Virus record (IMG/VR): IMGVR_UViG_3300045957_000057
Coordinates: 1-53,572 of that record
Strand: one strand, 5' to 3'
DNA from: a virus
Length of the DNA stretch: 53,572 nucleotides
The notes beneath the pieces are model-generated. The model ran no database searches. It was given only the letters and a program-made list of their open reading frames with translations, and had not been told where the DNA came from. The stretch's first letter is position 1; every line of letters begins with the position of its first letter. Position numbers and translations under genes: made by a program. Below, piece after piece: positions 428-53,572 of the stretch.

Positions 428-1810
428 ATGGACGCAGCCGCAGTGCTCGACATCGTGCCCGGTGCTCGACTCGCCGACGGGCTCGTCGTGCCGGAAGATC
501 TCGACGCACCGTTTCCGACACCGCACGGCTTCACACCGCCCGTCGAGTGGCTGCTCGAACCGCATCACGATGTCATTCCCGGCGCGACTGGGCTGATCAC
601 GGCGGACGGCCGCTTCTGCGCCTACTCGCACGAGTGGGACCGCTGTCACGTGTCGTTCACCGGCGCCGGCGAGTGCTGGACACCGCCGAGATCAGCGACC
701 GGCAACCGGATGTTCCATCAGAGCCGCACGACAGCGATGGCGGCCGACGGCACGATCGTCGAGATCCCGACCGGCGTCGTGCCGTTCGGCGGCGGTCACG
801 CCCCGCTCGACGCGACGGTCGCCGAAGCGTCGCAGTGGTACGACCGGCCGGACGTCACGAAGGTCATTGCACGAGCGGTCGAAGTCGACGACGGCTGCGT
901 GATGTGCGGCTTCATCGTTCCCGGCACGACGCACCGAGAGGTGGCGCTCATGCGAGCGTCGGCGCTCTCCGGCGACTGGCGATGGGTGCCGCAGATTCAT
1001 GATCTCGACTTCCTCGGTCCGTGCTTCGTCGCTCGGCCGGGGCTGCCGCTGTCGCTTGAGCACGCAGCGATCGAGCAGGCGCTCTGGCAGATCGAGCGCA
1101 CGACCGAGGTCAGCCGCACCGCCTCCGGCCAGATCTCCGCTGTTGTCGGAGGCATCGTCAGCTGGGCGCCGCGGCCGGCCGTGACCGATCATGTGCCGGC
1201 AGCCGTGATCGCCGCAGCAGTCGAACAGACCGGAGACGAACCGATGCCCGCTTGCAAGTGCCAGCAGACCGATACCGAGACGACGCCGGCGACGGTCGCC
1301 GCTCCGGTTCTGCCATCACACCGGAACCGGACGGCCGCGGCCGGCACATCGCTCTCGTTCCGCGAACTTGAGGAGTCCGTGCAAGAGGCGCTGATCGCAG
1401 CGTTCGGCACCGGCCCCGACCCGTGGGTGTGGGTCAAGGACTTCGACGACACGTGGGCCGTGATCGAGCTTGAGCGCTCCGACCCGATCCTTGGCACCGG
1501 CACCGGCACGTACCAAGTGGCGATCACGATCAACGCCGACGGCACCGTGCTCGTCGACCGCATGTCGGCGACCGAAGTCGAGACGGTCTTTCAGCCGGTC
1601 GGCGGCGGCACTCCGGAGAGCATCGAGGCGCTGCCGATGGTCACCGCTCACGCTTCGGACGCAGCGGCGATCGCCGAGATCCGGGCCGAGCTTGAGAGAG
1701 CGCTTCAGACCGTCGAGGCGCAGTCGGCCGACATCGCCCGGCTGACCGCTCAGTCGCTCGAACCGGCCGAGATCGTCGAGCAACTGCCTGAGGCGCCGGA
1801 ACCGGTCTAG
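428..1810 (+). CDS. Capsid maturation protease
   Basis: 460 residues. The N-terminal 220 residues follow the pattern of actinobacteriophage capsid maturation proteases. They show PVEWLLEP, a Gly/Asp-rich ITADGRFCAYSHEWDRCH block, ECWTPPRSATG, a MFHQSRTTAMAADG segment, GGGHAPLD and later LMRASALSGDWRWV. These landmark blocks are known from that family; the catalytic residues were not assigned. The C-terminal part has a SFRELEESVQEAL helix and a VWVKDFDDTWAVI strand block also typical of these proteins, then a coiled-coil tail (AEIRAELERALQTVEAQ). It would process head proteins inside the prohead. The gene sits between the MuF-like/unknown genes and the major capsid gene, the usual position. 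A CATGAT box lies 7 bases before the ATG. Confidence 0.8.
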   Translation: MDAAAVLDIVPGARLADGLVVPEDLDAPFPTPHGFTPPVEWLLEPHHDVIPGATGLITADGRFCAYSHEWDRCHVSFTGAGECWTPPRSATGNRMFHQSRTTAMAADGTIVEIPTGVVPFGGGHAPLDATVAEASQWYDRPDVTKVIARAVEVDDGCVMCGFIVPGTTHREVALMRASALSGDWRWVPQIHDLDFLGPCFVARPGLPLSLEHAAIEQALWQIERTTEVSRTASGQISAVVGGIVSWAPRPAVTDHVPAAVIAAAVEQTGDEPMPACKCQQTDTETTPATVAAPVLPSHRNRTAAAGTSLSFRELEESVQEALIAAFGTGPDPWVWVKDFDDTWAVIELERSDPILGTGTGTYQVAITINADGTVLVDRMSATEVETVFQPVGGGTPESIEALPMVTAHASDAAAIAEIRAELERALQTVEAQSADIARLTAQSLEPAEIVEQLPEAPEPV

Positions 1811-1963: not shown

Positions 1964-2055
1964 CACGGAGAGCACCGGGTGCGCTTCGAGTGGGGAACCG
2001 ACTGCCGACCGGGTCGGCGACCGCAACCGAACCGAAGTGCAGGAGGCACACCATC

Positions 2056-3978
2056 ATGCGGATGTTCAAGATCGGCGATCAGTGGTACAAGCTGGACGGC
2101 GCCCAGCTGGTCAAGATCGATGCTCCGGAGACCGAGCCGGCCGAGGGCGAGTTCTTCGACGCCTCGACTCTCGTGACCGAGTTCGACGGCATCGGCGAGC
2201 TGACCGCCGTCGCCGACCGAGCGAACGAGCTGATCGGCGAGTACAACCGTCTGCGGACCGAGGCCGCGACCGACCCCTCGAAGCTGACCGAGGCGAAGAC
2301 GGCGTACGATGCGTCGCTCGTCGCTCGGGTGCTGCACGGCGAGCGCAAGACCGCTCTCGACGGGCTGCCCGAGGCCGGTGCCCTGCCGAACGAGCCAGCT
2401 CCGACCGAGACCGACGACAAGCCGACCGAGACCGACGACAAGCCGGACGAGACGCCGGACGAGACGCCGGACGGCACTGACGTGACCGTGCCCGACGATG
2501 CGTCGTCGCTCACGCAGTCGATGCAGCTCGTCACCGCTGCCGCCGCTGCTGCCGGTGTCGATCCGGCCGATGTCTTCGCTCGGCTCGTGCCCGGCGGCGG
2601 CGACAAGCCGGCTGGAGCTCCTGCTCGGACCGAGCCTCGACAGCAGGCGACGATCATCGCCGCTGCCGACATCGGCTTCGGTGGCGGGCACGACATGTCG
2701 CTCGACGATCTGGCGACCGCTCATCAGCGGTTCGCGAAGAGCCGCCGGCACAACACCGCCGCCGTCGCCCAGACGATCGCGACGATCGAGATGTACGGCG
2801 ACGCTCCGAGCATGGTCGCATCCGCTCAGGCCGTCGAAGCTGCTGCCGACCGGAAGATCGACGCCGCTTCGGCCGCCGAGTTCCACGCTCGTCGCGCCGG
2901 CAGCCGGGGCATGACCGCCGCCGCTCCGGACCGGTGCGGCCCCCCCGATGTCCGCCGCGAGATCAAGTACGCCGGAGACGACACGTCGCCGCTGCTCAAC
3001 CTGGTGGAGACCTACCCCAGTCCGCACTGCGAGCTGGAGTACTACAAGGACATCTCGCTCTCGGACGCGAGCCCCGGCGTCGGTCGCTGGACCGAGGCCG
3101 CCCGCTCGGCGTATCAGACGGCGCTCGACAACTGGCGCTCGACCCAGGACGCTGCGACGCTCGCTGCGCTCAAGGCGGCCGAGAAGCTATGCGTCATCGC
3201 CGACTGCCCCCCGACGGGCAACGTCACGATGCTGCCCATCTATGCGTGCATCGAGTACCCGACCGATCTCGAGGTCTGCTCGCCGCAGGCGATCCGGGCC
3301 TACATGCGGGCGCTCAACCGTGCGTGGATCCGGGAGCGGTCGTCGAACTTCCTCGCCGTGCTGGCGACGATGTCGGCTCGTGTCACCGTCGACGCTTCCG
3401 ACGGCTTCTTCGAGAACGCCGACACGACCCCGATCAGGCTCGGCGCCGGCGGTGTGCTCGACTACGTGATGTCGACGCTGATGGGCATGGGGGTCATGGA
3501 CGAGCGGGTCACCGAGGGCGACTACGTCGCCGTCGTGCCGTACGGTCTGCAGCGGTTGCTTGAGATGGAGGGCCGGCTCGCCGAGGGTGTGTCGGCGATC
3601 TCCGACACGCTCGGCGGTATCCGCACGATCACGTCGCTCGACGTGGCGACCGGTTCGTCGCTGCCGTGGACGAGCATGCCCGCCCAGGACGGCACCACGA
3701 CCGACTTCGTCGGCGCTCTGCTGCCGCCGTCGGCGTGGGACATCGCCGTCTTCGATCCGAGCGACTTCTTCGCCATCACCCGACCCGACATCGAGCTTGG
3801 TGCTCAGGTCACCCCGGAGACGATCCGAGGGAACATGGTGTTCGGCGGCTTCATGGAGTCGCACGAGGGCTACGGCAAAGACGGCGCTCACCCGAGCTGG
3901 ACGATCGCCGCATCTAATCTCGTCTACAACGGCGTGCGTCCGGACAAGGCTTCGGCCGCCGGGCTGCTCACCGTCTGA
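2056..3978 (+). CDS. Major capsid protein with acidic N-terminal extension
   Basis: 640 residues from ATG 2056, chosen because AGGAGG lies 10 bases upstream; an in-frame start at 1990 has no such site. The C-terminal half (from about residue 290) looks like an HK97-fold major capsid protein: IKYAGDDTSPLLNL, a long alpha region, VTEGDYVAVVPYGL, GGIRTITSLDVATG, SPSAWDIAVFDPSDF-like blocks and IRGNMVFGGFMESHEGYGK. It follows the maturation protease, as expected. The N-terminal part is acidic, predicted helical and Ala-rich, with a repetitive linker at residues 115-140. It may serve as a fused scaffolding (delta) domain removed by the protease; that is inference. A class II box, a leader hairpin and a downstream hairpin suggest strong separate expression. 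Confidence 0.8.
   Translation: MRMFKIGDQWYKLDGAQLVKIDAPETEPAEGEFFDASTLVTEFDGIGELTAVADRANELIGEYNRLRTEAATDPSKLTEAKTAYDASLVARVLHGERKTALDGLPEAGALPNEPAPTETDDKPTETDDKPDETPDETPDGTDVTVPDDASSLTQSMQLVTAAAAAAGVDPADVFARLVPGGGDKPAGAPARTEPRQQATIIAAADIGFGGGHDMSLDDLATAHQRFAKSRRHNTAAVAQTIATIEMYGDAPSMVASAQAVEAAADRKIDAASAAEFHARRAGSRGMTAAAPDRCGPPDVRREIKYAGDDTSPLLNLVETYPSPHCELEYYKDISLSDASPGVGRWTEAARSAYQTALDNWRSTQDAATLAALKAAEKLCVIADCPPTGNVTMLPIYACIEYPTDLEVCSPQAIRAYMRALNRAWIRERSSNFLAVLATMSARVTVDASDGFFENADTTPIRLGAGGVLDYVMSTLMGMGVMDERVTEGDYVAVVPYGLQRLLEMEGRLAEGVSAISDTLGGIRTITSLDVATGSSLPWTSMPAQDGTTTDFVGALLPPSAWDIAVFDPSDFFAITRPDIELGAQVTPETIRGNMVFGGFMESHEGYGKDGAHPSWTIAASNLVYNGVRPDKASAAGLLTV
2404..2475 (+). repeat. Short tandem repeats in the capsid N-terminal linker
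   Basis: Two 18-base units (encoding ETDDKP with one change in the next codon) are followed by two 12-base units (encoding DETP). They form an acidic Thr/Pro linker within the extension of the capsid protein. Such repeats can vary in copy number between related phages. Confidence 0.7.
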
Positions 3979-25513: not shown

Positions 25514-26100
25514 CCGAGCTGATCAGCGACACGATGAGACTCGTGCTCGAAGCCGAGACCGTCGCCCTGCCGGCACAGACCGGCCCGTACGTCGAGTACA
25601 AGTGCGGCTGCAGCGAGTACATCGGCGACATCGACGCTCACCACTGGAACCGATGCGCTCCGCACGACCGGCATCTCGTCACTCGCTCCGGCGACTCGGA
25701 GATCTGCCGGCGCTGCGAGGTCGTGCATCACTACGTCGACAGCCGGATCGAAGCGGTCACCGGCACCGGCGGTCTCGTCTTCGTCTGGTGGCAAGACGAC
25801 CACGGCTCGAAGTGGATCGGCCGAGCGCTCGGAGCGTCGACCGACGTCTCGAAGTTGCTCGTCGACTCGGCGCACTGCACTGACGAACCGGCGGCCGAGC
25901 CGGAGCCGGAGCCCCGGCAGCGGCGGACGTTCTTCGTCGTCTGGTGCTCGATCTGTGATCCGAAGCCCGACGACCGGCACCCGTCGACGGTGTTCGGCGC
26001 CGAAGACGAGCGCGAAGAGTGGATCGAGCAGCACACCGCCGGACACACCGGCTTCGGTGATGGCGAACCGACGTACACGAGGAAGGAAGCGAAGCGATGA
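25510..26100 (+). CDS. Cys/His-rich protein, unknown
   Basis: 196 residues from ATG 25510 (ATGA overlap). Has YKCGCSEYIGDIDAHHWNRC and EICRRCEVVHHYVD, a possible zinc finger pair, a beta-rich middle (GGLVFVWWQDDHGSKWIGRA) and a second block with FFVVWCSICDPKPDDRHPST. C-terminal region is charged. Function unknown; sits in the operon before the Gam-like gene. Confidence 0.5.
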   Translation: MTELISDTMRLVLEAETVALPAQTGPYVEYKCGCSEYIGDIDAHHWNRCAPHDRHLVTRSGDSEICRRCEVVHHYVDSRIEAVTGTGGLVFVWWQDDHGSKWIGRALGASTDVSKLLVDSAHCTDEPAAEPEPEPRQRRTFFVVWCSICDPKPDDRHPSTVFGAEDEREEWIEQHTAGHTGFGDGEPTYTRKEAKR

Positions 26101-26855
26101 GCGACGACGACATGTTGACCGACCCGTGGGGGATCGCAGACGAGATCGACGGACTCGTCGACGGCTACGACCCGTCGGCCGAAGAACCGCCGACCGTCAC
26201 CGACGAACAGGCCGCCGACTGGGCCGGCCGACGGCTGCTCGCTCTTCGGTTCACAGCCGACGAGATGCGGCAAGTGCAAGCGCAGTACGCCGCCGAGATC
26301 GCCCGGCTCCGACAGCGCCTCGAGGAAGAGATCGCTCGGCTGAACGATCAGCGCGACGAGCACGTCGAGCAGCTGCAGTCGACGCTCGTCGCGCTGTCCG
26401 GCCAGCTGCAGCGCATGCACGCACAGCGGATCGCTCACAGTGAGCAGCTGCACCGCATCGCCGCATCTGCCGCAGCGGACGAGGGCCGGTCGGAGCCGAA
26501 GAAGCGGCTGCCGACGACGATCCGAGTGCCGCACGGCACGCTGCGGTCGCGACAAGCGTCCAGCAACGCTGTCGTGAGCTTCGATCCGGAGCACGAGACC
26601 GACATCGTGAAGTGGCTCGAAGCGAACGGCTACGGCGAAGGCGTGCGGGTCAAGCCGGCGGTCGCTGAGCAGCGGCTCGTCGACAAGCGCAAGCTCGGCG
26701 GGCTGGTGAAGCGTGACGACGACGGCAAGATCGTCGGTCTGACGAACGACGCCGGGGACGAGTGTCCGCACGTCACGGTCACCGACCGAGGCCGTGCGTA
26801 CTGGATCGAGCTGCCGGACGGCCGCAGCTCGAAAGACTGGATGCCCGAGCACTGA
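26097..26855 (+). CDS. Gam-like host-nuclease inhibitor / end protection protein
   Basis: 252 residues. A long coiled coil (about residues 55-125: QVQAQYAAEIARLRQRLEEE and similar) followed by TTIRVPHGTLRSRQASSNAV, then VKWLEANGYGEGVRVKPAVA. This order of coiled coil, PxGTLxxR strand and WLxxNG helix is the Mu Gam-like layout. Such proteins coat DNA ends and block RecBCD/AdnAB-type nucleases. It is next to a Bet/RecT gene, which fits a recombination module. Start overlaps the previous stop (ATGA). Confidence 0.65.
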   Translation: MSDDDMLTDPWGIADEIDGLVDGYDPSAEEPPTVTDEQAADWAGRRLLALRFTADEMRQVQAQYAAEIARLRQRLEEEIARLNDQRDEHVEQLQSTLVALSGQLQRMHAQRIAHSEQLHRIAASAAADEGRSEPKKRLPTTIRVPHGTLRSRQASSNAVVSFDPEHETDIVKWLEANGYGEGVRVKPAVAEQRLVDKRKLGGLVKRDDDGKIVGLTNDAGDECPHVTVTDRGRAYWIELPDGRSSKDWMPEH

Positions 26856-26882
26856 TAGAACGGAAGTACTAGCATGGCTGAC
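26856..26882 (+). promoter_or_regulatory. Class I promoter with TAGAAC-N4-GTACTA dyad
   Basis: Dyad 26856-26871; -10 box TAGCAT (26870-26875); 7 bases; ATG 26883. The Gam-like stop codon lies just before the dyad. GGAAACCACTC at 26885-26895, in the first codons. Drives the recombinase gene. Confidence 0.6.
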
Positions 26883-28142
26883 ATGGAAACCACTCACGAC
26901 GAACAGACGACGACCGACGACGATCCGGAGCTGGAGCTCCCGCCGGTCGAAGAGCAACCGACGACCGACGAGACACCGGCCGAGACCGGCCGAGAGACCG
27001 ACTCAGCGGTCGTGCAGTACACCGACCGAGACCGAGACGTCATCGCGTCCGTCGTCGGTCAAGGTGAGCTGAACGACGACGAGATCGACTTCGTGCTCGC
27101 TCAAGCGAAGCGGCTCGGTCTCGATGTGATGACCAAGCACATGCACGCCTGGAAGCAAGACGGGAAGCTGATCATGATGGTCGGCATCGACGGGCTGCGG
27201 CTCGTCGCTCGCCGCACCGGTCAGTTCCTCGGCCGAGACGATCCGGAGTGGCTGACCGCTGACGGCCGCTGGGTCGATGCGTTCATCACCGGCGCCGACG
27301 GCTACGGCCGGTTCCCGCTCGCAGCTCGTGTGCGAGTGCACCGCCGCGGCGATCTGCATCCGACGACCGGTCTCGCGCTGTGGGCCGAGTCGGCGAAGCT
27401 GTACGCCGACGGCAACCCGAAGGCGTCATGGAAGTCGATGCCGGCGCACATGCTCGCGAAGGTCGCCGAAGCGATGGCGCTGCGAGCTGCGTTCCCGGCC
27501 GAGCTGGCCGGCGTCTACACCGACGACGAGATCGCTCACGCTGACGATCTGCTCGCCGACCGGGGCGATCCGGCGAAGAATCCGGGCGCCGGCGACGAGA
27601 CGATCGCAGCGCTCGAAGCTCGACTCGCTGCGATGCAGCCGGAGACTCGCGCTCGGCTCGAAGGGTGGTGGTCGACGCAGTACGGCCCCGGTGTGCTCAA
27701 CGATCCGAACGTGCTGCCGCTCTCGCAAGGCGGTCTGCACCGGTTCACTGCCGCATCGGAGCACGTGACGTACGTCGAGCAGATGATCGGCCGAGCGGAG
27801 CAGCACGACGCCGACAAGGGCGGCGACAGCTCCGGACCAGAGCCGGAGACGCCGGCGCCGACCGGCACTTCGTCGGCCGGCAAGCCGACCGAACCGTCCG
27901 GCGAGCCGGCACCGTTTACCGATCTCGAGGCGACCGTGCTCGCAGCGCTGGAGATTGCGCCGGAGTCGAACCCCGACGAGATCGCCGCGGCCGGCGGCGT
28001 GCCGAAGGATGCGTCGCTCATGACGGCGATCGCTGCGCTGCTTGAGGGCGATCTGATCGAGCCGGTCGGCGACGGCCGAGGGCCAGCGAAGAAGTACCAA
28101 CGGAACGAACCATTGATCGCCGAGATCGAGGGAGATGCGTGA
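26883..28142 (+). CDS. Bet/RecT-family single-strand annealing protein
   Basis: 419 residues from ATG 26883; the in-frame ATG at 26874 lies in the promoter box. After an acidic N-terminal tail, residues 45-240 match Bet/RecT: LNDDEIDFVLAQAKRLGLDV, KHMHAWKQDGKLIMMVGIDG, LRLVARRTGQFLGRDDPEWL, ASWKSMPAHMLAKVAEAMAL and RAAFPAELAGVYTDDEIAHA. The protein anneals complementary single strands in phage recombination and replication. The C-terminal part after residue 300 is Pro/Ser-rich and ends in a helical pattern (EATVLAALEIAPESNPDEI) looking like a winged-helix tail. No exonuclease partner is recognised nearby; Gam-like lies upstream. Confidence 0.8.
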   Translation: METTHDEQTTTDDDPELELPPVEEQPTTDETPAETGRETDSAVVQYTDRDRDVIASVVGQGELNDDEIDFVLAQAKRLGLDVMTKHMHAWKQDGKLIMMVGIDGLRLVARRTGQFLGRDDPEWLTADGRWVDAFITGADGYGRFPLAARVRVHRRGDLHPTTGLALWAESAKLYADGNPKASWKSMPAHMLAKVAEAMALRAAFPAELAGVYTDDEIAHADDLLADRGDPAKNPGAGDETIAALEARLAAMQPETRARLEGWWSTQYGPGVLNDPNVLPLSQGGLHRFTAASEHVTYVEQMIGRAEQHDADKGGDSSGPEPETPAPTGTSSAGKPTEPSGEPAPFTDLEATVLAALEIAPESNPDEIAAAGGVPKDASLMTAIAALLEGDLIEPVGDGRGPAKKYQRNEPLIAEIEGDA

Positions 28143-39668: not shown

Positions 39669-39994
39669 TGCCCTGCGGCCAGATGCACGAGCGGCACTGG
39701 TTCACTCGCCGGGGGCTGATGGACACCATGATCAGCGTGCTGCTCGAGGACGGCGGCGGACTCAGCTCGACCGAGCTGCGACAGCTGACCGAACCGCTCG
39801 GCGTGCCGTACGACCGCTTCGACGTCGTGCTGCGGTACCTCGTCCGTGCCGGCGACGTGATCCGTGTCGAACAACCAGACTGGCATCACGTCGTCGAGGT
39901 CCGCGACGATGAGCAGAGCTGGCCAGCCGAGTCGCATCTGTACTTCGCTGACCCGATGGCCGAGACGAGCTGGGCCGCGACCGCAGCGGCATGA
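39668..39994 (+). CDS. Winged-helix-like small protein
   Basis: 108 residues. GLMDTMISVLLEDGGGLSST, ELRQLTEPLGVPYDRFDVVL and RYLVRAGDVIRVEQPDWHHV follow a winged-helix pattern (helix, helix-turn-helix, wing). It directly precedes the large terminase and overlaps it by 4 bases. It may help packaging or regulate; family not certain. Confidence 0.5.
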   Translation: MPCGQMHERHWFTRRGLMDTMISVLLEDGGGLSSTELRQLTEPLGVPYDRFDVVLRYLVRAGDVIRVEQPDWHHVVEVRDDEQSWPAESHLYFADPMAETSWAATAAA

Positions 39995-41565
39995 CCGACA
40001 CGCTCGACCCGCTCGTCGACGAGCAGCTGCTCGATCTGCTGACCGACGACTTCGTCGCACAGCTCGAAGGCGACGAACTCGACGCTCTGCTCGAAGTGAT
40101 GCTCGACACGGTCACCGTGCCCGGACGCCGCGGCCTACAACCGCATCAGCTCCCACCGGCGGACTTCCAAGCCGGAGAGCAGTTCGCTTGGATGTTCCAG
40201 GCCGGCCGCGGCTCCGGCAAGACGATGTCGATGAGCGAAGAGCTGTACGATCACGTCATGCACGGCCCGCCGTGCGACCCGTTCGAGCCCGGCGGTCACC
40301 GGATGGCGATCGTCGCTCCGACGCTCGGCGACGTCGCGTCGTCGTGCTTTCTCGGCCCGTCCGGTCTCCGGCGGATCGATCCCCGGTTCAAGATGGTCTC
40401 TCGGAAGGGCGGCACGTTCGTCATCTTCCCGAACGGCGCCGAAGCGAAGTGCACCGGCGGCAAGACCGAAGACGACACCGAGCGGCTGCGAGCGGCCGGC
40501 AACCTGTGCCGAGCGTGGGTCGAAGAAGCGGCGGCGATCAAGCGGCTCGCTCTCGTGTGGCGTCAGCTGCAGTTCGCCGTGCGGATGGGGCCGCGGCCGC
40601 AAGTGCAGATGTCGTCGACACCGAAGCGGACGACGGCGTTCAAGCGGGTCGTCGACTCGCACCGGGTGACCGTCACTCGTGCCCGGACGGCCGACAACGT
40701 GTATCTGCCCGAGTCGGAGCGCAAGCGGCTGTACGAAGACCACCAGGGCACTCGGCTCGCAGCTCAAGAACTCGAAGGCGAACTCGTCGAAGAGACACCG
40801 GGCGCGCTGTGGACCGGCGACGTCGTCGACGAGCGCCGGATTCTGACGTCGAAGTTGCGGCTGGAGCTCCCGCCGGCGGACGAGACACGAGAGCAGTGGT
40901 TGCGGCGTGCGCTCGGTCTGACGACGGTCTTCGTCGGCGTCGACCCGGCGACGTCCGGCGCCGGCGACCGCACCGGCATCGTCGTCGTCGGCGGCGACAA
41001 CCCGGCGAAGCGGCCATCACGACAGCGTGATGTGTTCTTCCTCGAAGACCGCACCGCGCTGATGGTTCCGTCGACCGTCGATCTCGGCGAAGCGCTCGGC
41101 GACGACAAGCTCGACCCGAACATCGAGGGCTGGGGCGACGTGCTCGGCGAGGTCGCGATCCGGTGGGCGGCCGACGGCGTCGTCGTCGAACGGAACCGGC
41201 TCGGCCGCACCGCTCGCGCCGTGATCCGAGCAGCCGGATTCACCGGTCGGATCATCGAGATCGACGCCAAGGGCTCGAAGGCGAACCGTGCCGACGCTCT
41301 CCGGCAGACGTGGCGGCGGCGCTGCTGGATCGTCGACAAGCTCCGGCATCTCGAGGCCGAAATGACGACATGGGTGCCGGCCGAAGGCGACGATCCGGAG
41401 TTCGACGACGAGGCCGACGATCTGCACGAGTTCACCGGTTCGCCGGACGCTCTGGACGGGGCCGGTCATCCGGCTCGTCTGCTGCTCGGTCTCGAAGAGC
41501 CGATCGTGCCGGACTCCGGCCCGCTGTCGGATGCGATGCTCGCCGGCTGGCAGTCGGTCGCATGA
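39991..41565 (+). CDS. Terminase large subunit
   Basis: 524 residues. ATPase: FAWMFQAGRGSGKTMSMSEE with Walker A G72-T78; ATPase coupling region near LCRAWVEEAAAIKRLALVWR (Walker B-like acidic EE). Nuclease: TVFVGVDPATSGAGDRTGIV with D318 as first acidic residue, later IRWAADGVVVERNRLGRTAR. It translocates DNA into the prohead and cuts it. ATGA start overlap with the preceding gene; the stop overlaps the next start (ATGATG). Confidence 0.9.
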   Translation: MTDTLDPLVDEQLLDLLTDDFVAQLEGDELDALLEVMLDTVTVPGRRGLQPHQLPPADFQAGEQFAWMFQAGRGSGKTMSMSEELYDHVMHGPPCDPFEPGGHRMAIVAPTLGDVASSCFLGPSGLRRIDPRFKMVSRKGGTFVIFPNGAEAKCTGGKTEDDTERLRAAGNLCRAWVEEAAAIKRLALVWRQLQFAVRMGPRPQVQMSSTPKRTTAFKRVVDSHRVTVTRARTADNVYLPESERKRLYEDHQGTRLAAQELEGELVEETPGALWTGDVVDERRILTSKLRLELPPADETREQWLRRALGLTTVFVGVDPATSGAGDRTGIVVVGGDNPAKRPSRQRDVFFLEDRTALMVPSTVDLGEALGDDKLDPNIEGWGDVLGEVAIRWAADGVVVERNRLGRTARAVIRAAGFTGRIIEIDAKGSKANRADALRQTWRRRCWIVDKLRHLEAEMTTWVPAEGDDPEFDDEADDLHEFTGSPDALDGAGHPARLLLGLEEPIVPDSGPLSDAMLAGWQSVA

Positions 41566-41895: not shown

Positions 41896-43173
41896 ATGAC
41901 TCAACCCACCGGCCTCATCTCCGACGAGCGGCCCGCCTGGTCCATCATCGATGCGGCCCGGGACATCACCGACCTCCCCCTGGTCACCGGCTTCGACTAC
42001 TGGCGCGGCGGCCTCGACGTCTGGTGGCGGGCCGCGCAGATCAACCGCATCCCGATCCGGTCCCTGTTCACGGCGTTCCCCGACGCGTCGATCGCCAATG
42101 TCGCCGACCCCGCGGTCTGGCCCGAAGCCAACGTGGTCATTGAGACCGGGCCCGGGGCCGGCAACCAGCTCGCCACGTTCCCCGACGGGGTGAAGCTGTC
42201 GGCGTCGCCGACCGAGATCACCCGCTTTCGGCCGTTCCGGGTCTACGCCCCGTCGGTCGAGCTTGAGCTCATGCAGGGCACCGGCCCGGGGGTCGGTCAG
42301 GACGACGCCCACGACCAGGCCGTCGCCATCGTCAATGCCCACATCACCGCCGGCGTGGTGGCCGAGTTCGCCGACTCTCTGACGACGAAAAATCCGGGCC
42401 TGTACCGCACAGCGGTCGACCAGTCCGGGCCAGCTGCGGTCGACATGGCGGTCGCCATCGCCACCCTCTACGAGGCCCACGGCCGCCTCCCCGCCGGGAC
42501 CGGCCCCGACAACGATCTCAGCCTCACCGGCGGATCCGGAGACGCCCGCCTGACCGTCCCGTATCACGCCATCCCCGGCCTCGTCGAGCGCAACCTGGCC
42601 CGCTGGCAGGGCGGCCGGCTGATCGACTGCTACGGCAACCCGGTCATCACCGGCCCCGGGTACGTGGGCCGCGGGCCCCTCACGGTCAACGACCCGGACG
42701 TCGCCGTCGACCTTGAGTCCAGCGTCGCCCCGGCCGAGGGCGAAGGGTGGTTCTACATCAGCCACGCCCCCTACGTCGCCGTCGGACCGTTCATGCCGGC
42801 GGTGGAGGGCGAGATCGGGCGGAATGCCCCGCGGGGCGCCCACGCGAAGGCCAACGAGGCCGTGGGCCTGGCCGAGGCCCCGGCCATCGTGGTCTTCCGT
42901 CCCGAGCGGGTGTTCGCCGTCAACACCGTCATCGACGATCGGGGTCGCCCCGGCGGCGGCGGCCGGGGCCAGCACGGTCACGCCATCAAGCTCGGTATCG
43001 ACCGCGGTCTGCGGGGTCCCGGTGTCGGATCGTGGAAGCCGCCGGAGGAACAGGCGGCCGTCGGTGTCGCGCATGACGACAACGGAGGCAGTCGGATTGC
43101 CGCTTCCGCCTCCGCCACCGCCGGCGGTCAGGGGAGTTGGAGCTGGGAGAGTCATGTCACAGAACCTCGTTGA
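41896..43173 (+). CDS. Diverged second copy of virion protein A, chimeric 3' end
   Basis: Open from ATG 41896 for 425 codons. Residues 1-346 are a clear homologue of the gene at 4065: AWSIIDAARDITDL at the start, VVAEFADSLTTKNPGLYRTA (the 4065 copy has AAEFADSLYTKNPGLYRAA) and GLAEAPAIVVFRPERVFAVN near the end. The match is moderate, so this is a distinct, diverged version, not a recent copy. Codon use is richer in CCC/GCC/GGC than the neighbours. After residue 346 (the 33-bp repeat at 42901-42933) the frame runs into antisense of gene B' and is not native. Confidence 0.65.
   Translation: MTQPTGLISDERPAWSIIDAARDITDLPLVTGFDYWRGGLDVWWRAAQINRIPIRSLFTAFPDASIANVADPAVWPEANVVIETGPGAGNQLATFPDGVKLSASPTEITRFRPFRVYAPSVELELMQGTGPGVGQDDAHDQAVAIVNAHITAGVVAEFADSLTTKNPGLYRTAVDQSGPAAVDMAVAIATLYEAHGRLPAGTGPDNDLSLTGGSGDARLTVPYHAIPGLVERNLARWQGGRLIDCYGNPVITGPGYVGRGPLTVNDPDVAVDLESSVAPAEGEGWFYISHAPYVAVGPFMPAVEGEIGRNAPRGAHAKANEAVGLAEAPAIVVFRPERVFAVNTVIDDRGRPGGGGRGQHGHAIKLGIDRGLRGPGVGSWKPPEEQAAVGVAHDDNGGSRIAASASATAGGQGSWSWESHVTEPR
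42901..42933. repeat. 33-bp inverted repeat, left arm
   Basis: The last 33 bases that belong to native gene A' sequence (encoding PERVFAVNTVI). The exact reverse complement occurs at 43172-43204. The 238 bases between arms are inverted relative to native gene order. Confidence 0.9.
42938..43155 (-). pseudogene. Inverted, truncated copy of virion protein B (B')
   Basis: On the minus strand, ATG at 43155 opens MTLPAPTPLTAGGGGGGSGN, matching the 5104 gene (MTLPAADPVGFGSGGGGGSG), then LFLRRLPRSDTGTPQTAVDT. Homology lasts about 72 codons, then the 33-bp repeat takes over. On the same strand just upstream sits the end of a second A' copy (FAVNTVINEVL and stop), so native order A'-B' is preserved on the minus strand. 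Confidence 0.7.
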
Positions 43174-43204
43174 TGACGGTGTTGACGGCGAACACCCGCT
43201 CGGG
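43172..43204. repeat. 33-bp inverted repeat, right arm
   Basis: Perfect reverse complement of 42901-42933. Its outer neighbour bases (43205 on) do not continue gene A' homology; the foreign segment ends here. Confidence 0.9.
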
Positions 43205-43205
43205 C

Positions 43206-43286
43206 GTCGTGATCGGCTGCTGCGTGTGGGCCGCGGCCGTTGCCGGTGTCGTGCTGATGTGGTGTCGGGCGGTCATACAACCGTAG
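43206..43286 (+). pseudogene. 3' part of the split small membrane protein gene
   Basis: In the same reading frame as the 41562 fragment: VVIGCCVWAAAVAGVVLMWC then RAVIQP and stop, one clear membrane helix with native codon use. No start is visible next to it. With the 41562 fragment it would form a two-helix protein once the segment between is removed. Confidence 0.5.
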
Positions 43287-43339
43287 AACCGGCGTGCTAC
43301 TCTTGTGCTCACGTAACCACAAGAGAGGAAACCACTCAC
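43284..43339 (+). promoter_or_regulatory. Class I promoter with a leader hairpin
   Basis: Dyad TAGAAC-N4-GTGCTA at 43284-43299; -10 TACTCT (43298-43303) with TGC before it. Predicted transcript start about 43311, then a leader carrying GGAAACCACTC (43327-43337) and ATG 43340. An inverted repeat CTCTTGTG/CACAAGAG (43300-43307, 43318-43325) spans the start point and could be an operator. Confidence 0.65.
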
Positions 43340-44380
43340 ATGGCACACGAGCTTGAACTCACTGGCGACGGCGTCGCGTCGTTCGCTTACTCGAAGAATT
43401 ACGGCGATCCGTGGCACCGGCTCGGCACTCCGCTCGACGGTCTGTCGGACGTCGACACGATCCTGCAGCTGAGCCGAGCTGACTACGAGGTGCACAAGGC
43501 GACGCTGCTCACGCCGGACCCGGCACCGAGTCGGCGAGACGGCATCGGCCGGCCGATGCTCGACACCGGCAGCTCGTACACGTGGCGCACTCGACCGATC
43601 TGGATCGGCGACGACGGTCAGCCTCGAGGCGGCGACCGGCACGTGCTCGGCATCGTCGGCAACGACTACCCGGTTGTGCAGAACCGGCAGCTGACCGAGC
43701 TGGCCCTGCGACTCGTCGGAGCGCTGCCGGGCGACCGCACGATCGACTGCGCCGGCGTGCTCGACGACGGCCGCCGGTTCTTCTTGACGATCCCGCTCGA
43801 CGACATCGTGCTCGACCCGTCCGGCGTCGCCGACGTGCACGGCCGCAACCTCGTCGTCTCGACCGGTCACGACGGGCACTGGGCGATCAACTTCGTGCAC
43901 GGCATCGTGCGAGCGGTCTGCGCGAACACCGTGCAGGCGGCGAACGACTCGGCGCACTGGCTCGTCACGATCCCGCACCGGGGCAAGTTCGATCCGGATC
44001 GGATCTCGCTGCAGCGTGCGCTCGGTCTCGCCGAGCGCGGCGGCTCGGTGTTCGAGGAGACCGCGGTCAAGCTGCTCGGCATGCCGGCGTCGTTCGACGT
44101 TGTCGTGTCGACGCATGACCGGATCTGGGGCGCTGCTCGTGCGAAGTCGATCCGTGTGAACCGGCTCAACACGCTGGAGACGCTGTGGACGTCAGACACC
44201 AACGTCGGCGCTGTCGGAGCGAACCGGTGGGCGGCGCTGATGACGTTCTCGGAGTACTTCGAGCATCGGCAGCAGTTCGCCGGCTCGAAGCGGCCGGGAG
44301 CTCGACCGCTGCGGGCGACCGGTGTCGGCGGCATGCACACTCGGATCACGCAGGCCCGCAAGATCCTGGAGACGATCTGA
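43340..44380 (+). CDS. DUF932 / phage-plasmid-like protein
   Basis: 346 residues from ATG 43340. The N-terminal YSKNYGDPWHRLGTPLDGLS (W-H-x-L-G-T box), a middle KNRQLTELALRLVGAL-type helix block, FLTIPLDDIVLDPSGVADVH, NFVHGIVRAVCANTVQAAND and FDVVVSTHDRIWGAARAKSI follow the DUF932 (TIGR03299-type) family found in phages and plasmids. Function unproven; associated with replication or recombination modules. First gene behind a class I promoter, likely early. Confidence 0.75.
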   Translation: MAHELELTGDGVASFAYSKNYGDPWHRLGTPLDGLSDVDTILQLSRADYEVHKATLLTPDPAPSRRDGIGRPMLDTGSSYTWRTRPIWIGDDGQPRGGDRHVLGIVGNDYPVVQNRQLTELALRLVGALPGDRTIDCAGVLDDGRRFFLTIPLDDIVLDPSGVADVHGRNLVVSTGHDGHWAINFVHGIVRAVCANTVQAANDSAHWLVTIPHRGKFDPDRISLQRALGLAERGGSVFEETAVKLLGMPASFDVVVSTHDRIWGAARAKSIRVNRLNTLETLWTSDTNVGAVGANRWAALMTFSEYFEHRQQFAGSKRPGARPLRATGVGGMHTRITQARKILETI

Positions 44381-46196: not shown

Positions 46197-46501
46197 GCTT
46201 CGTCACCGGCATTGTCGTAGGGATCGCCGGTGTGTTCGGAGCGAGCGCGGCAGTCGTCGCCGGTCTCATCGTCGCAGCGATGCGCGTTGACCGGCGGCGA
46301 GCGGGGGCGCAGCTGCTCGACGACGGGCTGCCGCCGGGCGTCATGATCGCCGACGGTGACGGTCGGAGCCGCACCGTCGAGTGGTGGTGCATGATCTGTG
46401 GCACGTCGAGCGTGACCGGCCGGTCTACGATGCACGGACCGCGGTTCCACAAGTGCGGCGAGCTGCACTCGACTCCGAGCCGGAGCCGCGGCATCGACTG
46501 A
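46193..46501 (+). CDS. Membrane protein with C-terminal Cys domain
   Basis: 102 residues, GTG start in a GTGA overlap. N-terminal membrane helix (VTGIVVGIAGVFGASAAVVA plus GLIVAAMRV), then a domain with WWCMICGTSSVTGRSTMHGP and a later Cys. Directly precedes and overlaps the amidase gene by one base. Confidence 0.5.
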   Translation: MSFVTGIVVGIAGVFGASAAVVAGLIVAAMRVDRRRAGAQLLDDGLPPGVMIADGDGRSRTVEWWCMICGTSSVTGRSTMHGPRFHKCGELHSTPSRSRGID

Positions 46502-47373
46502 TGCCGATCACGTACGACGACAAGCGGATCTACCTCGATGACAACCCGCCGGCGCGGTCTCAGTTCCGTGTCGGCCGTCGTGATCCGGTGCGGTCTGTCA
46601 TCGTCGTGCACACCGCCGAGTCGGGCACCGATCTGACCGGTCCGGATCTCAAGGCCGAGAGCGTCGCCGGCTTCATCGTCCGCCGATCGACGCCGGGCTC
46701 GTACCACTTGCTCGGCGACGCCGACTCGATCATCCGGCTGATCCGGTTCGAGAACGAGGCGTTCCACGACCGCACCGGCTCGAACCGGTGGGCGATCGGC
46801 ATCTCGCTCGCGATGAACGCCGGCGACTGGCCGACGTTGCCGGAGCACCGGCGGCAGCAGTTCGTCGCGACGGCGGCCGAGATGGCCGTGATCGCCGGGA
46901 GCTGGCTCGCAGACCGCGGTGTCGGCTGGCCCGAGCCGGTGCTGCTGACGAAGCAGCAGTCGGATCGGTCGGACGCGTCCGGCTTCATCTCGCACGGTCG
47001 TCGAGATCCGGGCCGCCGGTCTGACCCCGGTGTAGCGTTCCCGTGGCTCGACTTCTTCGAGCAGTATCGACGTCGAGCTCCTGCCGGCGTCTTCACCCCG
47101 GACAGCGGAAGCGAGATCATCGTGCCAGAGCAGCGCATGACGTGGGAAGAGGTGCAGCAAGCACTCAACGACGCCGGCTTCGACGCCGGTACCGTCGACG
47201 GTGATCCGTGGACGAAGACGAGAGCGGCGTTCCGTGAGGCGCTGACCGCTGCTCAGGACCCGAAGCTGCCGGATGGGCTCGATCTCGAGGCTCTGATCCG
47301 GAAGGCGGCGAAGTACGACCGGATCTTCGAGGGGGTCAAGGGCATCCGTGAGTCGTTGGGGCTCGGCATCTGA
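46501..47373 (+). CDS. Endolysin: N-acetylmuramoyl-L-alanine amidase type
   Basis: 290 residues. Amidase_2/PGRP pattern: VRSVIVVHTAESGTDLTGPD with H37, YHLLGDADSIIRLIRFENEA, NRWAIGISLAMNAGDWPTLP, ISHGRRDPGRRSDPGVAFPW with a second zinc His (H165) and Asp. It cleaves the amide bond in peptidoglycan to release phage. The C-terminal part (MTWEEVQQALNDAGFDAGTV onward) resembles a short peptidoglycan-binding repeat. Start overlaps the previous stop (TGATG). Confidence 0.85.
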   Translation: MPITYDDKRIYLDDNPPARSQFRVGRRDPVRSVIVVHTAESGTDLTGPDLKAESVAGFIVRRSTPGSYHLLGDADSIIRLIRFENEAFHDRTGSNRWAIGISLAMNAGDWPTLPEHRRQQFVATAAEMAVIAGSWLADRGVGWPEPVLLTKQQSDRSDASGFISHGRRDPGRRSDPGVAFPWLDFFEQYRRRAPAGVFTPDSGSEIIVPEQRMTWEEVQQALNDAGFDAGTVDGDPWTKTRAAFREALTAAQDPKLPDGLDLEALIRKAAKYDRIFEGVKGIRESLGLGI

Positions 47374-48567: not shown

Positions 48568-48590
48568 ACGGCTCGGCTACGCTGTTGACC

Positions 48591-49223
48591 ATGACCACTC
48601 CGATCGACGAACGTGCGGCCCGTGAGGCGCTTTGCCTACCTGCCGACGCGACGCTAGTTCAGAGCCACGTGCGCACTGCGTACCGGCGCCGCGCCCGAGA
48701 GACACATCCGGATGTCAACGACGGCGAGGATGCCGAGTTCAAGCTCGTGACGGCCGCGGCTGAGTACTTGCGGTCGGAGCTTGACCGAGAGGGCGGCGAG
48801 CTGCCACCGCTAGCGGCGAAGCCCCCGCCTCGAGGGCCGAACTTCTCCGGCGCTACGGCCGATGTCGCCGAGATGCTGCGCAAGGCTCGGACGCTGTTCG
48901 ACGATCAAGTCGATGTGTCGGAGTGGGCGCAAGCGAACGCCGAGCGGACGAGACGAGAGCACGCTGAGCGGTACGCCGGGAGGCATGGCCCATCGGCCAA
49001 CATCTGGGATCCGGTCAACGGCCACCGGCCGGCCGACGATCTCCGCACCGCTCGTCTGTCGGCGAACGACGAAGGTCACGTCGTCGTCGAGAACGTCCCG
49101 CCTGGCGCAAGGGTGGTGTTCAATGTCCGCACCGCCGGCGTGCGCATCGAGTCCGCCGACGGTAAGCCGCTGCCGATCAAGATCGACATCGCCGGGATGA
49201 TGAACGATCTGTTCCCCGGCTGA
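48591..49223 (+). CDS. J-domain (DnaJ-like) protein
   Basis: 210 residues from ATG 48591, 7 bases after TACGCT. J-domain at the N-terminus: EALCLPADATLVQSHVRTAY, RRRARETHPDVNDGEDAEFK with the H39-P40-D41 motif, then helix KLVTAAAEYLRSEL. No Gly/Phe or zinc region follows, so it is a J-only protein. The C-terminal half has its own helices and a strand block (HVVVENVPPGARVVFNVRTA). It may redirect host DnaK, for example for head assembly. Confidence 0.75.
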   Translation: MTTPIDERAAREALCLPADATLVQSHVRTAYRRRARETHPDVNDGEDAEFKLVTAAAEYLRSELDREGGELPPLAAKPPPRGPNFSGATADVAEMLRKARTLFDDQVDVSEWAQANAERTRREHAERYAGRHGPSANIWDPVNGHRPADDLRTARLSANDEGHVVVENVPPGARVVFNVRTAGVRIESADGKPLPIKIDIAGMMNDLFPG

Positions 49224-49577: not shown

Positions 49578-49814
49578 ATGGCCGCGCAGCACTCTGATGA
49601 TCATCTCGGCCGGCTCGTGGTGCACTCGACGCCGGACATTGTCACCGAGATCGAGGGTGTGCGGTTCGATGAGGCCGAGCGAGCGATGCAGCAGCTCAGC
49701 CGGCACGAGTCGGCGACCGTCCGCACCGAGTACGGCACGGTCTACTTGATCGACGGGCTGCACTTCGCTGCCGGATGGTGGTCACCGGCCGGAACTCCAC
49801 GGGGTGAGTCGTGA
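49578..49814 (+). CDS. Small protein before portal, unknown
   Basis: 78 residues; CACAAT box 6 bases before ATG. HLGRLVVHSTPDIVTEIEGV, EAERAMQQLSRHESATVRTE, then a strand YGTVYLIDGLHFAAGWWSPA. Alpha/beta small protein. Overlaps portal by 4 bases (GTGA). Confidence 0.5.
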   Translation: MAAQHSDDHLGRLVVHSTPDIVTEIEGVRFDEAERAMQQLSRHESATVRTEYGTVYLIDGLHFAAGWWSPAGTPRGES

Positions 49815-51403
49815 CGATCAGACGCCGGCAGCAACCGATCTCGGCTGCAGTCGTCGCAGCACCGGGCGGTAACGGCCACACGCTCGGGCATGCTGTGACG
49901 GCCGCCGCCGGACCGGCGTACGAGTCGAACCGGACCGACGGGCTGCCCGACTTCGCTCTGACAGCGCAGCAAGTCGAGATCGATCGGTACGTCGACTGCG
50001 TCGGCTGGGCCGGCTTCTACGTACAGATCAAGGCGATGCTCGGAGCGATGTGCCCGTGGATTGTGGAGCAGCGGCAAGGCGTCGAGTGGGTGCGAGTCGA
50101 GGATCCGAGAGTGAACGCTCTCGCGTCGCTGATTCAGCCGCCGACTCGGTCGCAAGCCGGTCTGCGGTTCCGGTCACTGATGTTGCAGTCGTCGATCGCC
50201 GAGCATGCGTTCTGGCCGGCGCACACGAAGCGGCGCGGTCTCGTCTTCGACATCGCTCACCCTGGGCAGCTTCGGCGGTCTCCGGACTCGTCTGACCGGT
50301 TCGTCGTTCGCACTCGCTCAGATGCCCGGCTCGGCGGGCCCGGCTGGCATGAGTACGGGCTCGAACGGCTCCGGCGGCACTGGATCCCCAACCGGCGGTG
50401 GACCGACGAAGCCGATCCGGAGCTGTCGACCGTGCTGACCGAGCTGCGACTGTACGAGTCGACCGTGCTCGACCTGCTCCGAGCTTCGCAGTCACGCATG
50501 GTGATGAACGGTCTGCTCTACATCCCGACGATGCCGACCGGCTCGAACGCTGACGGTGGCATGTGGGCGACCGAGCAGTCGATCGACGCGTCGTCGCCGG
50601 CGGTGCCGTCGACACCGGCCGGCGGTGGTCTGATGAAGCTGATCGCCGACATGAGCGCGTTCGGTGCTCGGGCCTACCGGGATCATCTCGGCAACGACGT
50701 CGCCTCGGCGATGCCGTACCCGTTCCCGCACTTCGCCGAGCCGAAGATGCTCGACATGGGCCGACCGATCTCGGCCGAAGCTCTCGCAGCGCTCGCCGAG
50801 GTCGTCTTCGCAGCCGCTCGAGGCTTGCATATTCCGTCGCAGTTCCTCGTGTCCGGCGAGGCGTCAGCGAATCACTGGGGCGACGCTGAGCTTCGCCGTG
50901 CGCTGCACGAGCGGGCGGTGTTCCCGGAGCTGGAGCCGAACAACGAGTTCTGGACCGAGGTCGGTCTGCGGCCGATCATGGAGGTGACTCGGGCCGGTGG
51001 GCTCGTGCTCCGTGACGACGACCCGGCTGACTACCGGCTCGGGTGCGACACGTCGGTGCTCGACATCAAGTCGGACTCGCTGCAGGCGATCGCTCTCGCT
51101 CACTCGACCGGCGCTGCCGGTCGTTCGTGGCTGGCGGCGAAGCTCGGCATCCCTGAGTCGGAGATGCTGCGGCTGCCGCACGACGTGACCGAGTACGAGC
51201 AGTGGCTTTACTCGAAGTCGTCGTCGGCTCGTGCCGGTGGTGAGGCGGCGCGAGACGGGCTGACACCGGGGTCGATGCCGGGCCCGCAAGCCGGTGACGA
51301 GCCGGGCTCGGGTGTCGGTCCGGCTGTGCCGTCTGTCGACGCTCCGACCGAGCCGGAGGTGACCGCCGGTGCTCTGCGGTTGATCGCCGGCGGGGGCCGC
51401 TGA
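49811..51403 (+). CDS. Portal protein
   Basis: 530 residues, GTG start. Portal pattern: FYVQIKAMLGAMCPWIVEQR near the start, MLQSSIAEHAFWPAHTKRRG, LERLRRHWIPNRRWTDEADP, LLRASQSRMVMNGLLYIPTM, FGARAYRDHLGNDVASAMPY, ARGLHIPSQFLVSGEASANH and a long C-terminal helical region. It forms the ring at the head vertex through which DNA passes. Followed by the MuF-like gene with a TGATG overlap. Confidence 0.85.
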   Translation: MTIRRRQQPISAAVVAAPGGNGHTLGHAVTAAAGPAYESNRTDGLPDFALTAQQVEIDRYVDCVGWAGFYVQIKAMLGAMCPWIVEQRQGVEWVRVEDPRVNALASLIQPPTRSQAGLRFRSLMLQSSIAEHAFWPAHTKRRGLVFDIAHPGQLRRSPDSSDRFVVRTRSDARLGGPGWHEYGLERLRRHWIPNRRWTDEADPELSTVLTELRLYESTVLDLLRASQSRMVMNGLLYIPTMPTGSNADGGMWATEQSIDASSPAVPSTPAGGGLMKLIADMSAFGARAYRDHLGNDVASAMPYPFPHFAEPKMLDMGRPISAEALAALAEVVFAAARGLHIPSQFLVSGEASANHWGDAELRRALHERAVFPELEPNNEFWTEVGLRPIMEVTRAGGLVLRDDDPADYRLGCDTSVLDIKSDSLQAIALAHSTGAAGRSWLAAKLGIPESEMLRLPHDVTEYEQWLYSKSSSARAGGEAARDGLTPGSMPGPQAGDEPGSGVGPAVPSVDAPTEPEVTAGALRLIAGGGR

Positions 51404-53271
51404 TGCGCCCGCCGGCGGCTGCTCAGCAGATCGCCGAGCGTGCTCTTGGTCAGCTGTCCGGACCGGAGAGGGCCGCGGCTGATCTTCCGTGCCGGATTGC
51501 TGCCGGCACGGATCTGTCGTTCACCGAGATCGCCGCGATCCAGGGTGTGATGCTGCTCGACGACAGCTCGGCCGAGCAGCGTCTCGCTCGGCAGCTGCTC
51601 GGTGGTGAGCCGATGGCGCGGGCAGTCGCCGCGGCGGCGTCTGTAGAGCAGGCGGTCGGCCAGCCCGATCCGGGGCCGCACACCGGCGCGATGCTCGCCG
51701 GCGTCGTTCCCTCCGACGTTGCCGAGCAGCTGTCGGTGTCGGACGGGCTGCCGGTCGGCGATCTGCACGTGACGCTGTTCTTCTTCGGTGACGCCGCCGA
51801 TCTTGACGAGTCGACTCGGCAGAGCATTCGGTCGGTCGCTCAGCAGTTCTCGGCTCGGATGCCGATCTCGGTGATCGCCGGTCATGTTGGGCATCTCGGC
51901 GACGCTGAGCGAGACGGCGCTGTCGCTGTGGCGTACGAGCTGACCGCTCCGGCGCTGCACGAGCTGCATGCCGAGATGCAGCAGCAGCTCGATCAGCTCG
52001 GTGTCGAGTACTCCGACCGGTTCGCATTCCGGCCGCACTTGACGATCACGTATCTGACGCCGGACGAGGCCGAGTCGAGCTGGCCGGAAGGGCCGGTCGA
52101 CCAGCCGGTCGAGTTCGAGCTTGCCGGCGTCGCCGCCCGGTTCGGCGACGAAGACGGCGATACGGACCTGATCGAGCTGCAGGCGCCGCCCACATCGCCG
52201 GTGACGGCCGCCGGGGCCGCTGTCGGCTATCCGGTGCTCTCCGGCGCTCTGACCGAGCTGAACGGCTTCCTGGCGTCCGTCGACCGAGATCTCGGTGTCG
52301 AAGTCCGGACAGCGGTCGAGATCGGTTGGCGGTCGTCGCTCGACCGTGTCGGCCGGATGGCGACACGGCGAGCCGCCGCCGCCGCTCAGCGGCAGCTCAT
52401 GCAGATCGAGCCGGGGGCCGCGGCCGTGCACGCCGCCGCTGATCTGTCCGGTCTCGACGTCGACGCTCTGATCGGTCCGGCAGTCGACGACATCGCTCGA
52501 CACGTCGAGCGCAGGGCCGCGACCGTGCAGGCCGTCGTCGCCGGCCGGATCGGTGAGCTGTTCGGCGTCGACATCTCGAACGTGTGGCCGGAGCCGGCCG
52601 AGATCCGCACGCAGCTCGCCGATGCGATGACGGCGGAGCTTCAGCGCACGCTCGGCCGGCTCGGCGACCGCGATCGGATCGATCCGACAGCGACCGAGGC
52701 CGATCCGCTGCTCGCTCCGTATCAGCTGACTCGCAACGTGCTCGCGTTCGCCGGCGGCGCCGACATCGTCGACGGCGGCATCCGGCGAGACGGCATCGGC
52801 CGGCCGCTGACTGCACGGCTGACCGCCGGCGCCGACTCGGTGCCGCTCGGGCCGGGCACGATCGAGCTTGTGCGTGATGCGCTCGTCTCATGGTCCGATG
52901 CCGGCGTAACAGCCGCGGCACGACGCCGCGCCGGTGCCGCGATCTCGGACGAGCTGCGGGCGGAGTTATCCGAGGTCGCCTCGAGGATGGCCGGAGCGTC
53001 GGAGCAGCCCCCGCTTGAACAGGTGACCGTGCACACGTGGCGGCTGAACCTGAACGGCCGAGCGATCGAGAACCTGCCGAGGCACGAGAAACTTGCCGGC
53101 ACGACTGTCGCTTCGGTGTCGGATCTGCAGCAGCTCGCCGACGCCGCGGCCGATCCGAACGACTGGCCCGGTGTTTCGTACTCGCATCCGGGCGACCATC
53201 GGCACTGCCACTGCGGCTGGGACACGCACATCGAGCTGCGACCGGTGCAGCTCGCTCTTCCGGTGTCGTAA
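51403..53271 (+). CDS. MuF-like head protein fused to a 2H phosphoesterase domain
   Basis: 622 residues. Residues about 95-250 form a 2H phosphoesterase domain: VGDLHVTLFFFGDAADLDES with H122-x-T, then SDRFAFRPHLTITYLTPDEA with H212-x-T; two H-x-T motifs about 90 residues apart define the LigT/2H fold. The C-terminus ends with WPGVSYSHPGDHRHCHCGWD, the MuF-type PGDH-x-C-x-C signature of head morphogenesis proteins, and the middle is helical. Known 2H enzymes cleave 2'-5' or cyclic nucleotide bonds, or act on RNA ends. Being in a head protein, the domain could enter the cell with the DNA; this is inference. Confidence 0.75.
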   Translation: MRPPAAAQQIAERALGQLSGPERAAADLPCRIAAGTDLSFTEIAAIQGVMLLDDSSAEQRLARQLLGGEPMARAVAAAASVEQAVGQPDPGPHTGAMLAGVVPSDVAEQLSVSDGLPVGDLHVTLFFFGDAADLDESTRQSIRSVAQQFSARMPISVIAGHVGHLGDAERDGAVAVAYELTAPALHELHAEMQQQLDQLGVEYSDRFAFRPHLTITYLTPDEAESSWPEGPVDQPVEFELAGVAARFGDEDGDTDLIELQAPPTSPVTAAGAAVGYPVLSGALTELNGFLASVDRDLGVEVRTAVEIGWRSSLDRVGRMATRRAAAAAQRQLMQIEPGAAAVHAAADLSGLDVDALIGPAVDDIARHVERRAATVQAVVAGRIGELFGVDISNVWPEPAEIRTQLADAMTAELQRTLGRLGDRDRIDPTATEADPLLAPYQLTRNVLAFAGGADIVDGGIRRDGIGRPLTARLTAGADSVPLGPGTIELVRDALVSWSDAGVTAAARRRAGAAISDELRAELSEVASRMAGASEQPPLEQVTVHTWRLNLNGRAIENLPRHEKLAGTTVASVSDLQQLADAAADPNDWPGVSYSHPGDHRHCHCGWDTHIELRPVQLALPVS

Positions 53272-53273
53272 AG

Positions 53274-53301
53274 TTGCATGTTGCTGCAGTGTTGGTATCG
53301 T
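53274..53301 (+). promoter_or_regulatory. Promoter candidate after MuF-like gene
   Basis: TTGCAT, 16-base spacer, TATCGT. Lies directly after the MuF-like stop, 100 bases before the hairpin and the gene across the join. AT-richer than its surroundings. Confidence 0.5.
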
Positions 53302-53403: not shown

Positions 53404-53572
53404 ATGACCGACGACGATCGTCTGCCGCCGACCGGCGCTAGGAGTGCGATGACGAAGCCTGGCGCTATTGAATGGTGGCACTGCCTCGACGTGTGGACGT
53501 CGCTCGGCGGCCACCCCGCCAAGTTCGATGAGTGGATCGCTGAGCCTCGCAGGACACGGGCAGACGCTTGGG
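53404..53572 (+). CDS. 5' part of the gene spanning the circular join
   Basis: Starts MTDDDRLPPTGARSAMTKPG and continues WWHCLDVWTSLGGHPAKFDE into the terminal repeat; after closing the circle it runs to 419 (about 183 residues). TATGAT box ends 6 bases before the ATG, and the hairpin lies about 20 bases upstream. Unknown head-module protein. Confidence 0.6.
   Translation, partial: MTDDDRLPPTGARSAMTKPGAIEWWHCLDVWTSLGGHPAKFDEWIAEPRRTRADAW
53537..53572. repeat. 36-base terminal direct repeat (copy of 1-36)
   Basis: TCGCTGAGCCTCGCAGGACA and the next 16 bases are identical to positions 1-36. The reading frame is continuous when the copies are merged. This most likely marks a circular assembly of a circularly permuted or circular molecule, not a packaged end repeat. 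Confidence 0.9.

Follow-up and report, generated by a model that had tools for sequence, protein, structure and literature searches.

What is a 2H phosphoesterase doing in a head protein of a phage? The question is raised by the window, by which we mean the whole stretch of 53,572 nucleotides analysed here (IMG/VR record IMGVR_UViG_3300045957_000057). It is the DNA of a soil-type bacteriophage that carries, directly after its portal gene, a gene for a fusion of a 2H phosphoesterase and a MuF-like protein. The initial annotation had placed this gene at positions 51403 to 53271, and the placement was exact: the frame lies on the plus strand and encodes 622 amino acids, recognized as a fusion from the open reading frame list, from Pfam and from the homology of its C-terminus. 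Positions 1-36 and 53537-53572 of the window are identical (36 bp), so that the record, though not marked so, most likely represents either a circular assembly of about 53.5 kb or a permuted genome.

With the ends joined, the genes run in the order portal, 2H protein, small ORF, capsid maturation protease, probable major head protein. The portal protein (530 amino acids; 49811-51403, plus strand) was recognized by a match to phrog_776 (E=1.4e-11), and the A of its TGA stop is shared with the ATG of the 2H gene (TGATG, 51401-51405), an overlap which suggests that translation of both genes may be coupled. Downstream, the small ORF starts at 53278 and runs on the plus strand to the end of the window (53572), and it stays open in frame through the 36-bp overlap of the ends as far as about position 419. 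The capsid maturation protease (428-1810, plus strand; phrog_859/18402/29860, and tblastn matches to annotated capsid maturation proteases) lies two genes after the 2H gene, and is followed by the probable major head protein (1990-3978, plus strand; phrog_777, a weak match with E=1.1e-3). The 2H gene sits between the portal and the protease and major capsid genes, as MuF genes do. Elsewhere in the genome, a J-domain protein (DnaJ, PF00226, E=1.9e-7; 48585-49223) is encoded a few genes upstream of the portal. The region between the terminase (39991-41565) and the portal also holds a DUF932 protein (PF06067, E=7.9e-30; 42713-44380) and an amidase-type endolysin (46381-47373), and at 26097-28142 the gene of a Mu Gam-like protein precedes that of a RecT-family recombinase.

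The enzyme domain occupies the N-terminal part of the fusion. It was modelled over residues 83-260 (51649-52182, plus strand), and its core, residues 120-229, matches the Pfam family 2_5_RNA_ligase2 (PF13563) with E=5.8e-11, above the curated cut-off. The two H-x-T motifs of a LigT/2H domain that had been reported at H122 and H212 are at the right positions. The first, H122-V-T124 in the context LH122VT124L (51766-51774, plus strand), is invariant in the family but was selected by our search pattern. The second, H212-L-T214 in the context PH212LT214 (52036-52044, plus strand), lay outside that pattern, and its conservation is therefore an unbiased test: among 56 family proteins the histidine is kept in 55 and the threonine in all, as are L121, H122, T124 and L125. 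The conservation of the catalytic histidines in relatives, on which the initial annotation had staked its claim, was thus borne out. Two HxT motifs about 90 residues apart on a duplicated alpha+beta fold are what places a protein in the 2H superfamily, and both are found here; a chance occurrence of the two motifs was rejected on the PF13563 match, the family conservation and the AlphaFold model. The window copy departs from the family at G161, which is H, and at F165, which is L, in columns that are 95-97% conserved. Together with the long branch of this copy in the domain tree (see below), these changes may indicate a shift in its activity or specificity. Three PHROGs match the 2H part, namely phrog_18402 and two 'RNA ligase' families. 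As phrog_18402, labelled 'head maturation protease', is matched at profile positions 361-529 of 861, the PHROG database already contains 2H domains in head proteins.

An AlphaFold2 model of the domain, built from a 61-sequence alignment (pLDDT 88.9, pTM 0.84), leaves the predicted 2H fold certain, and the comparison with Acb1 and LigT called for by the initial annotation gave Z scores of 12 to 15 to known 2H enzymes. In VIA-align the highest values were obtained for the Deinococcus CPDase (Z 15.1), Thermus TT0787 (14.3) and the rotavirus VP3 2'-5' phosphodiesterase (14.1), with rmsd of 2.5-2.6, and lower ones for E. coli LigT (12.8), AKAP18 (12.2), Acb1 (12.0) and Usb1 (11.9). A profile search of the PDB ranked the proteins in a similar way, with PH0099 at E=3.5e-12 and CPDase at E=6e-12, against E=2.4e-3 and E=0.018 for the Acb1 proteins of phages BCSR5 and FBB1. 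By sequence and by modelled structure alike, the domain is closer to CPDase and LigT, RNA 2',3'-cyclic phosphodiesterases, than to Acb1. The comparison with T4 Acb1 that had been drawn earlier holds for the common 2H fold, but the nearer kinship is with CPDase/LigT (profile values of about 1e-12 versus 2e-3 to 2e-2). Filing the protein as an Acb1 homologue was rejected; its match to the Acb1 Pfam model stays below the cut-off (PF23474, E=0.014, 15.5 bits versus 27). The LigT_PEase match (E=0.0011) is likewise below its cut-off, and the ThpR/LigT equivalog model TIGR02258 scores 38.4 bits versus a cut-off of 65.7. Since all the substrate classes of these enzymes occur on the 2H fold, kinship of fold does not fix the substrate of the window enzyme.

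The remainder of the protein (52189-53268, plus strand) is, from homology and modelling, a helical stalk and a small domain that ends in PGDHxxCxC. The HPGDHRHCHC motif at residues 595-604 (53185-53214, plus strand) is a typical end of a MuF-like domain. When viral contigs were searched with a DNA pattern for WxGx5PGDHxxCxC, 26 stretches came up. The proteins that contain them, many of them about 800 amino acids long, share a C-terminal domain, and those scanned are portals of phrog_776, the family of the window's own portal, with a fused MuF-like domain. Residues 263-622 are homologous to the C-terminal domain of such portal fusion proteins of about 820 amino acids (phmmer, best 3.3e-8). An HMM from which the selected motif had been cut away still recovered the window C-terminus at 2.6e-5, where the best value among 500 shuffles was 0.2, so that its membership in the C-terminal domain of the phrog_776 portal-MuF fusions rests on significant homology. 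The AlphaFold model of this region has a pLDDT of 69, and its best BFVD neighbours, with weak values (E>=4.5e-3), are with few exceptions minor capsid or head-morphogenesis proteins. Alignment to MuF with hhalign was weak but collinear (score 25.3 versus at most 21.3 in 60 controls), and the single-sequence version was not significant (P 0.022). The C-terminal model retrieved only helical bundles from the PDB, with no solved MuF fold among the matches, tblastn of the C-terminus in phages gave no match, and the Pfam MuF model (PF04233) found nothing in the window even at E<=10. Hence the earlier description of the C-terminus as MuF-like stands in part: it is well supported by the portal-fusion homology, the head-type neighbours and the gene position, while the PF04233 model itself is unmatched. 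Portal and MuF-like domain thus form one chain in related phages, and the window divides them between two genes with the 2H domain at the joint. Two of the scanned portal fusions, those of L102 (1340-4357, minus strand) and L106 (5325-8921, minus strand), are single chains of a phrog_776 portal, a MuF-like part and an ADP-ribosyltransferase (PF03496), so that enzymes are swapped on this chassis.

How general is the pairing of a 2H domain with a head protein? The whole protein, the 2H domain, the C-terminus and the portal were each used as a query against viral contigs and returned no relatives, so that the window phage is isolated in the collections. The family was reached only through an alignment seeded with phage relatives and a protein-motif DNA pattern; the seeded alignment search yielded 80 viral loci, and a scan of bacterial genomes added 29, mostly in actinobacteria. 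All 56 representative proteins match PF13563, and their other matches are mainly to portals (16 + 2), prohead/XkdF-type proteases (8 + 5 + 1), MuF (3) and capsid proteins. Partner classes, assigned from similarity clusters and from Pfam and PHROG labels, show 47 of 61 non-redundant members joined to a head protein: a portal in 17, a protease in 20, MuF in 7 (window included) and a capsid protein in 3, with no partner assigned in 9. As the search pattern came from mostly head-fused seeds, these counts describe the 2H subfamily rather than all phage 2H proteins.

In the 2H tree the window is the longest branch and groups with L006, L007 and L036 (support 99/95), which share its layout: the 2H domain leads, and a CxC domain of head type lies at the C-terminus. 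Terminase and portal genes precede the 2H-MuF gene in L006 and L007, and in L007 the protease, scaffold and major head genes come next. The tree thus agrees with protein architecture, which played no part in building it. At least eight changes of partner are seen across it; the partners differ, and the apparent compartment, the head, stays one. The head fusions and the near-invariant second HxT favour a working enzyme placed in the head. Some members deserve mention in their own right. In L020 (4843-8619), L021 (5686-8676) and L062 (5845-8583) a single polyprotein carries the 2H domain upstream of a major capsid protein, so that each head would contain hundreds of 2H copies unless they are cleaved off and lost. 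In L043 the second motif reads HLA and in L083 PR.T, with R for H, and these may be naturally inactive versions. L011 (4732-6495), L018, L022, L034 and L064, large 2H proteins from mostly large phages, make up a single tight clade; the N-terminus of L011 is an Arr-type rifampin ADP-ribosyltransferase domain (PF12120), a pairing that might serve RNA repair or form an NAD-linked module.

The reading that best explains the 2H fold, the HxT/HxT pair, the MuF-like homology, the position next to the portal and the recurrent head fusions of the subfamily is that of a minor head protein whose enzyme is delivered with the genome, and we put its probability at about 0.45. Inside the capsid, the MuF-like C-terminus would dock the protein at the portal, and the N-terminal 2H domain would be carried there as a working, metal-independent phosphoesterase. 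The protein would most likely leave the head together with the DNA and act early in the new host, where it may cut 2',3'-cyclic phosphates or 2'-5'/3'-5' linked (oligo)nucleotides, whether defence signals or leftover RNA ends. The benefit to the phage would be resistance to host defence. By our own estimate, 1 micromolar of a signal in a cell of about 1 femtolitre corresponds to some 600 molecules, which one enzyme with a few turnovers per second could clear in minutes. The relatives fused to portal or capsid proteins argue that ejection is only part of the explanation, unless the domain is cut loose by the protease. Also speaking against this reading, five of the 61 members pair the 2H domain with other large proteins of no known head assignment; the one looked at carries the Arr-type ADP-ribosyltransferase. 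A wider formulation, which we regard as tentative and rather doubtful, is that the subfamily serves phages as a general counter-defence enzyme carried in the virion, recruited repeatedly to portal, MuF, protease and capsid, delivered with the DNA, and directed at defence nucleotides other than those of Acb1 or active before phage gene expression.

The substrate may instead be RNA, the enzyme trimming or opening 2',3'-cyclic phosphate ends as LigT and CPDase do or serving as an RNase like Usb1, with immune nucleotides no target at all. The nearest solved relatives in sequence and fold act on such RNA ends, Usb1 matches too, and an RNase role was favoured, as one of two options, for 2H-MuF and 2H-portal fusions by Iyer et al. 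2017 (PMC5512222). However, the same fold carries Acb1 and viral 2'-5' phosphodiesterases, and the window genome contains neither a PF09414 RNA ligase nor RtcB nor tRNA genes. The absence of both ligases fits a remark in the 2017 paper, argues against a simple RNA-repair pair and weakens repair with an RNA ligase as a candidate. We hold an action confined to RNA to be unlikely, if a serious contender.

Alternatively, the enzyme would be made late with the head proteins and act in the producing cell, and the fusion would mainly secure late and abundant expression rather than delivery. Late expression would readily account for 2H domains joined to portal, protease and major capsid protein, which are hard to square with ejection, and abortive defences can act late too. 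What speaks against this account, which we also hold to be unlikely, is that the link goes beyond membership in an operon: physical fusion recurs through the many changes of partner, and hardly any intact member stands alone (median ORF length 730 amino acids). Least probable is a structural or binding passenger with no catalytic use, for which the fast evolution of the window copy, its two lost family-conserved residues and the broken second motif in two relatives could speak; against it, the window and nearly all relatives retain HxT/HxT, their overall identity being about 25%.

Packaged delivery and action on immune signals, as suggested by the initial annotation, are a reasonable idea that restates a published hypothesis. 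Iyer, Burroughs and Aravind have described 2H-MuF and 2H-portal fusions (PMC5512222, 2017; PMC9503650, 2022); packaging of such fusions and their use against host defence were proposed in the former, and the latter again regards their packaging and injection, as a counter to nucleotide signalling, as probable. No test of this proposal was found in the literature searched. The window contributes one divergent member to the described 2H-MuF fusions, and with it a clear sister lineage of the same layout. Should 2H enzymes carried in the head really be injected and active, phages could weaken immunity that relies on signals as soon as infection begins, and homologous fusions in the cultured phages Maih (Streptomyces griseus) and Edmundo (Arthrobacter) make the proposal easy to test.

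Compared with the polyvalent and head protein fusions of PMC5512222 and PMC9503650, the window protein shares the domain pairing, the late-gene context and the proposed role, but it lies outside Pfam MuF, its 2H domain is divergent and its MuF-like domain is of the portal-fused type. Among cultured phages, Maih gp11 (capsid maturation protease and MuF-like fusion) also joins MuF and 2H in one head protein after the portal gene; its 1192 amino acids hold MuF, then 2H, then a long part clustering with proteases, whereas in the window 2H is the leading domain and the protease has a gene of its own. Edmundo gp18 has a homologous 2H domain in the head module, yet fused to an XkdF-type protease, with MuF as a separate gene. 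In Microbacterium phages, where portal-MuF, MuF-protease and MuF-VIP2 fusions are known (PMC7302621), the MuF-like domain is similarly joined to the portal or carries an enzyme; in MuF-VIP2-type fusions that enzyme is an ADP-ribosyltransferase, C-terminal in proteins of the L102/L106 type, while the 2H domain of the window is N-terminal. Microbacterium phage Gina has the plain version of the locus, with portal, MuF-like minor capsid protein and protease in the same order. Among solved enzymes, LigT/ThpR/CPDase (5h7e, 1iuh, 5ldm) share the fold and HxT/HxT and are the best profile and structure match, but they are free-standing cellular enzymes, and the window lacks the conserved F of the GxGxF motif. 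The Acb1 proteins of T4 and FBB1 have the same fold and motifs and are more distant in sequence, shorter and free-standing; in FBB1 Acb1, aromatic base-stacking residues and a C-terminal lid (Y12, W74, F107, W147, E141) have been described (PMC9117128).
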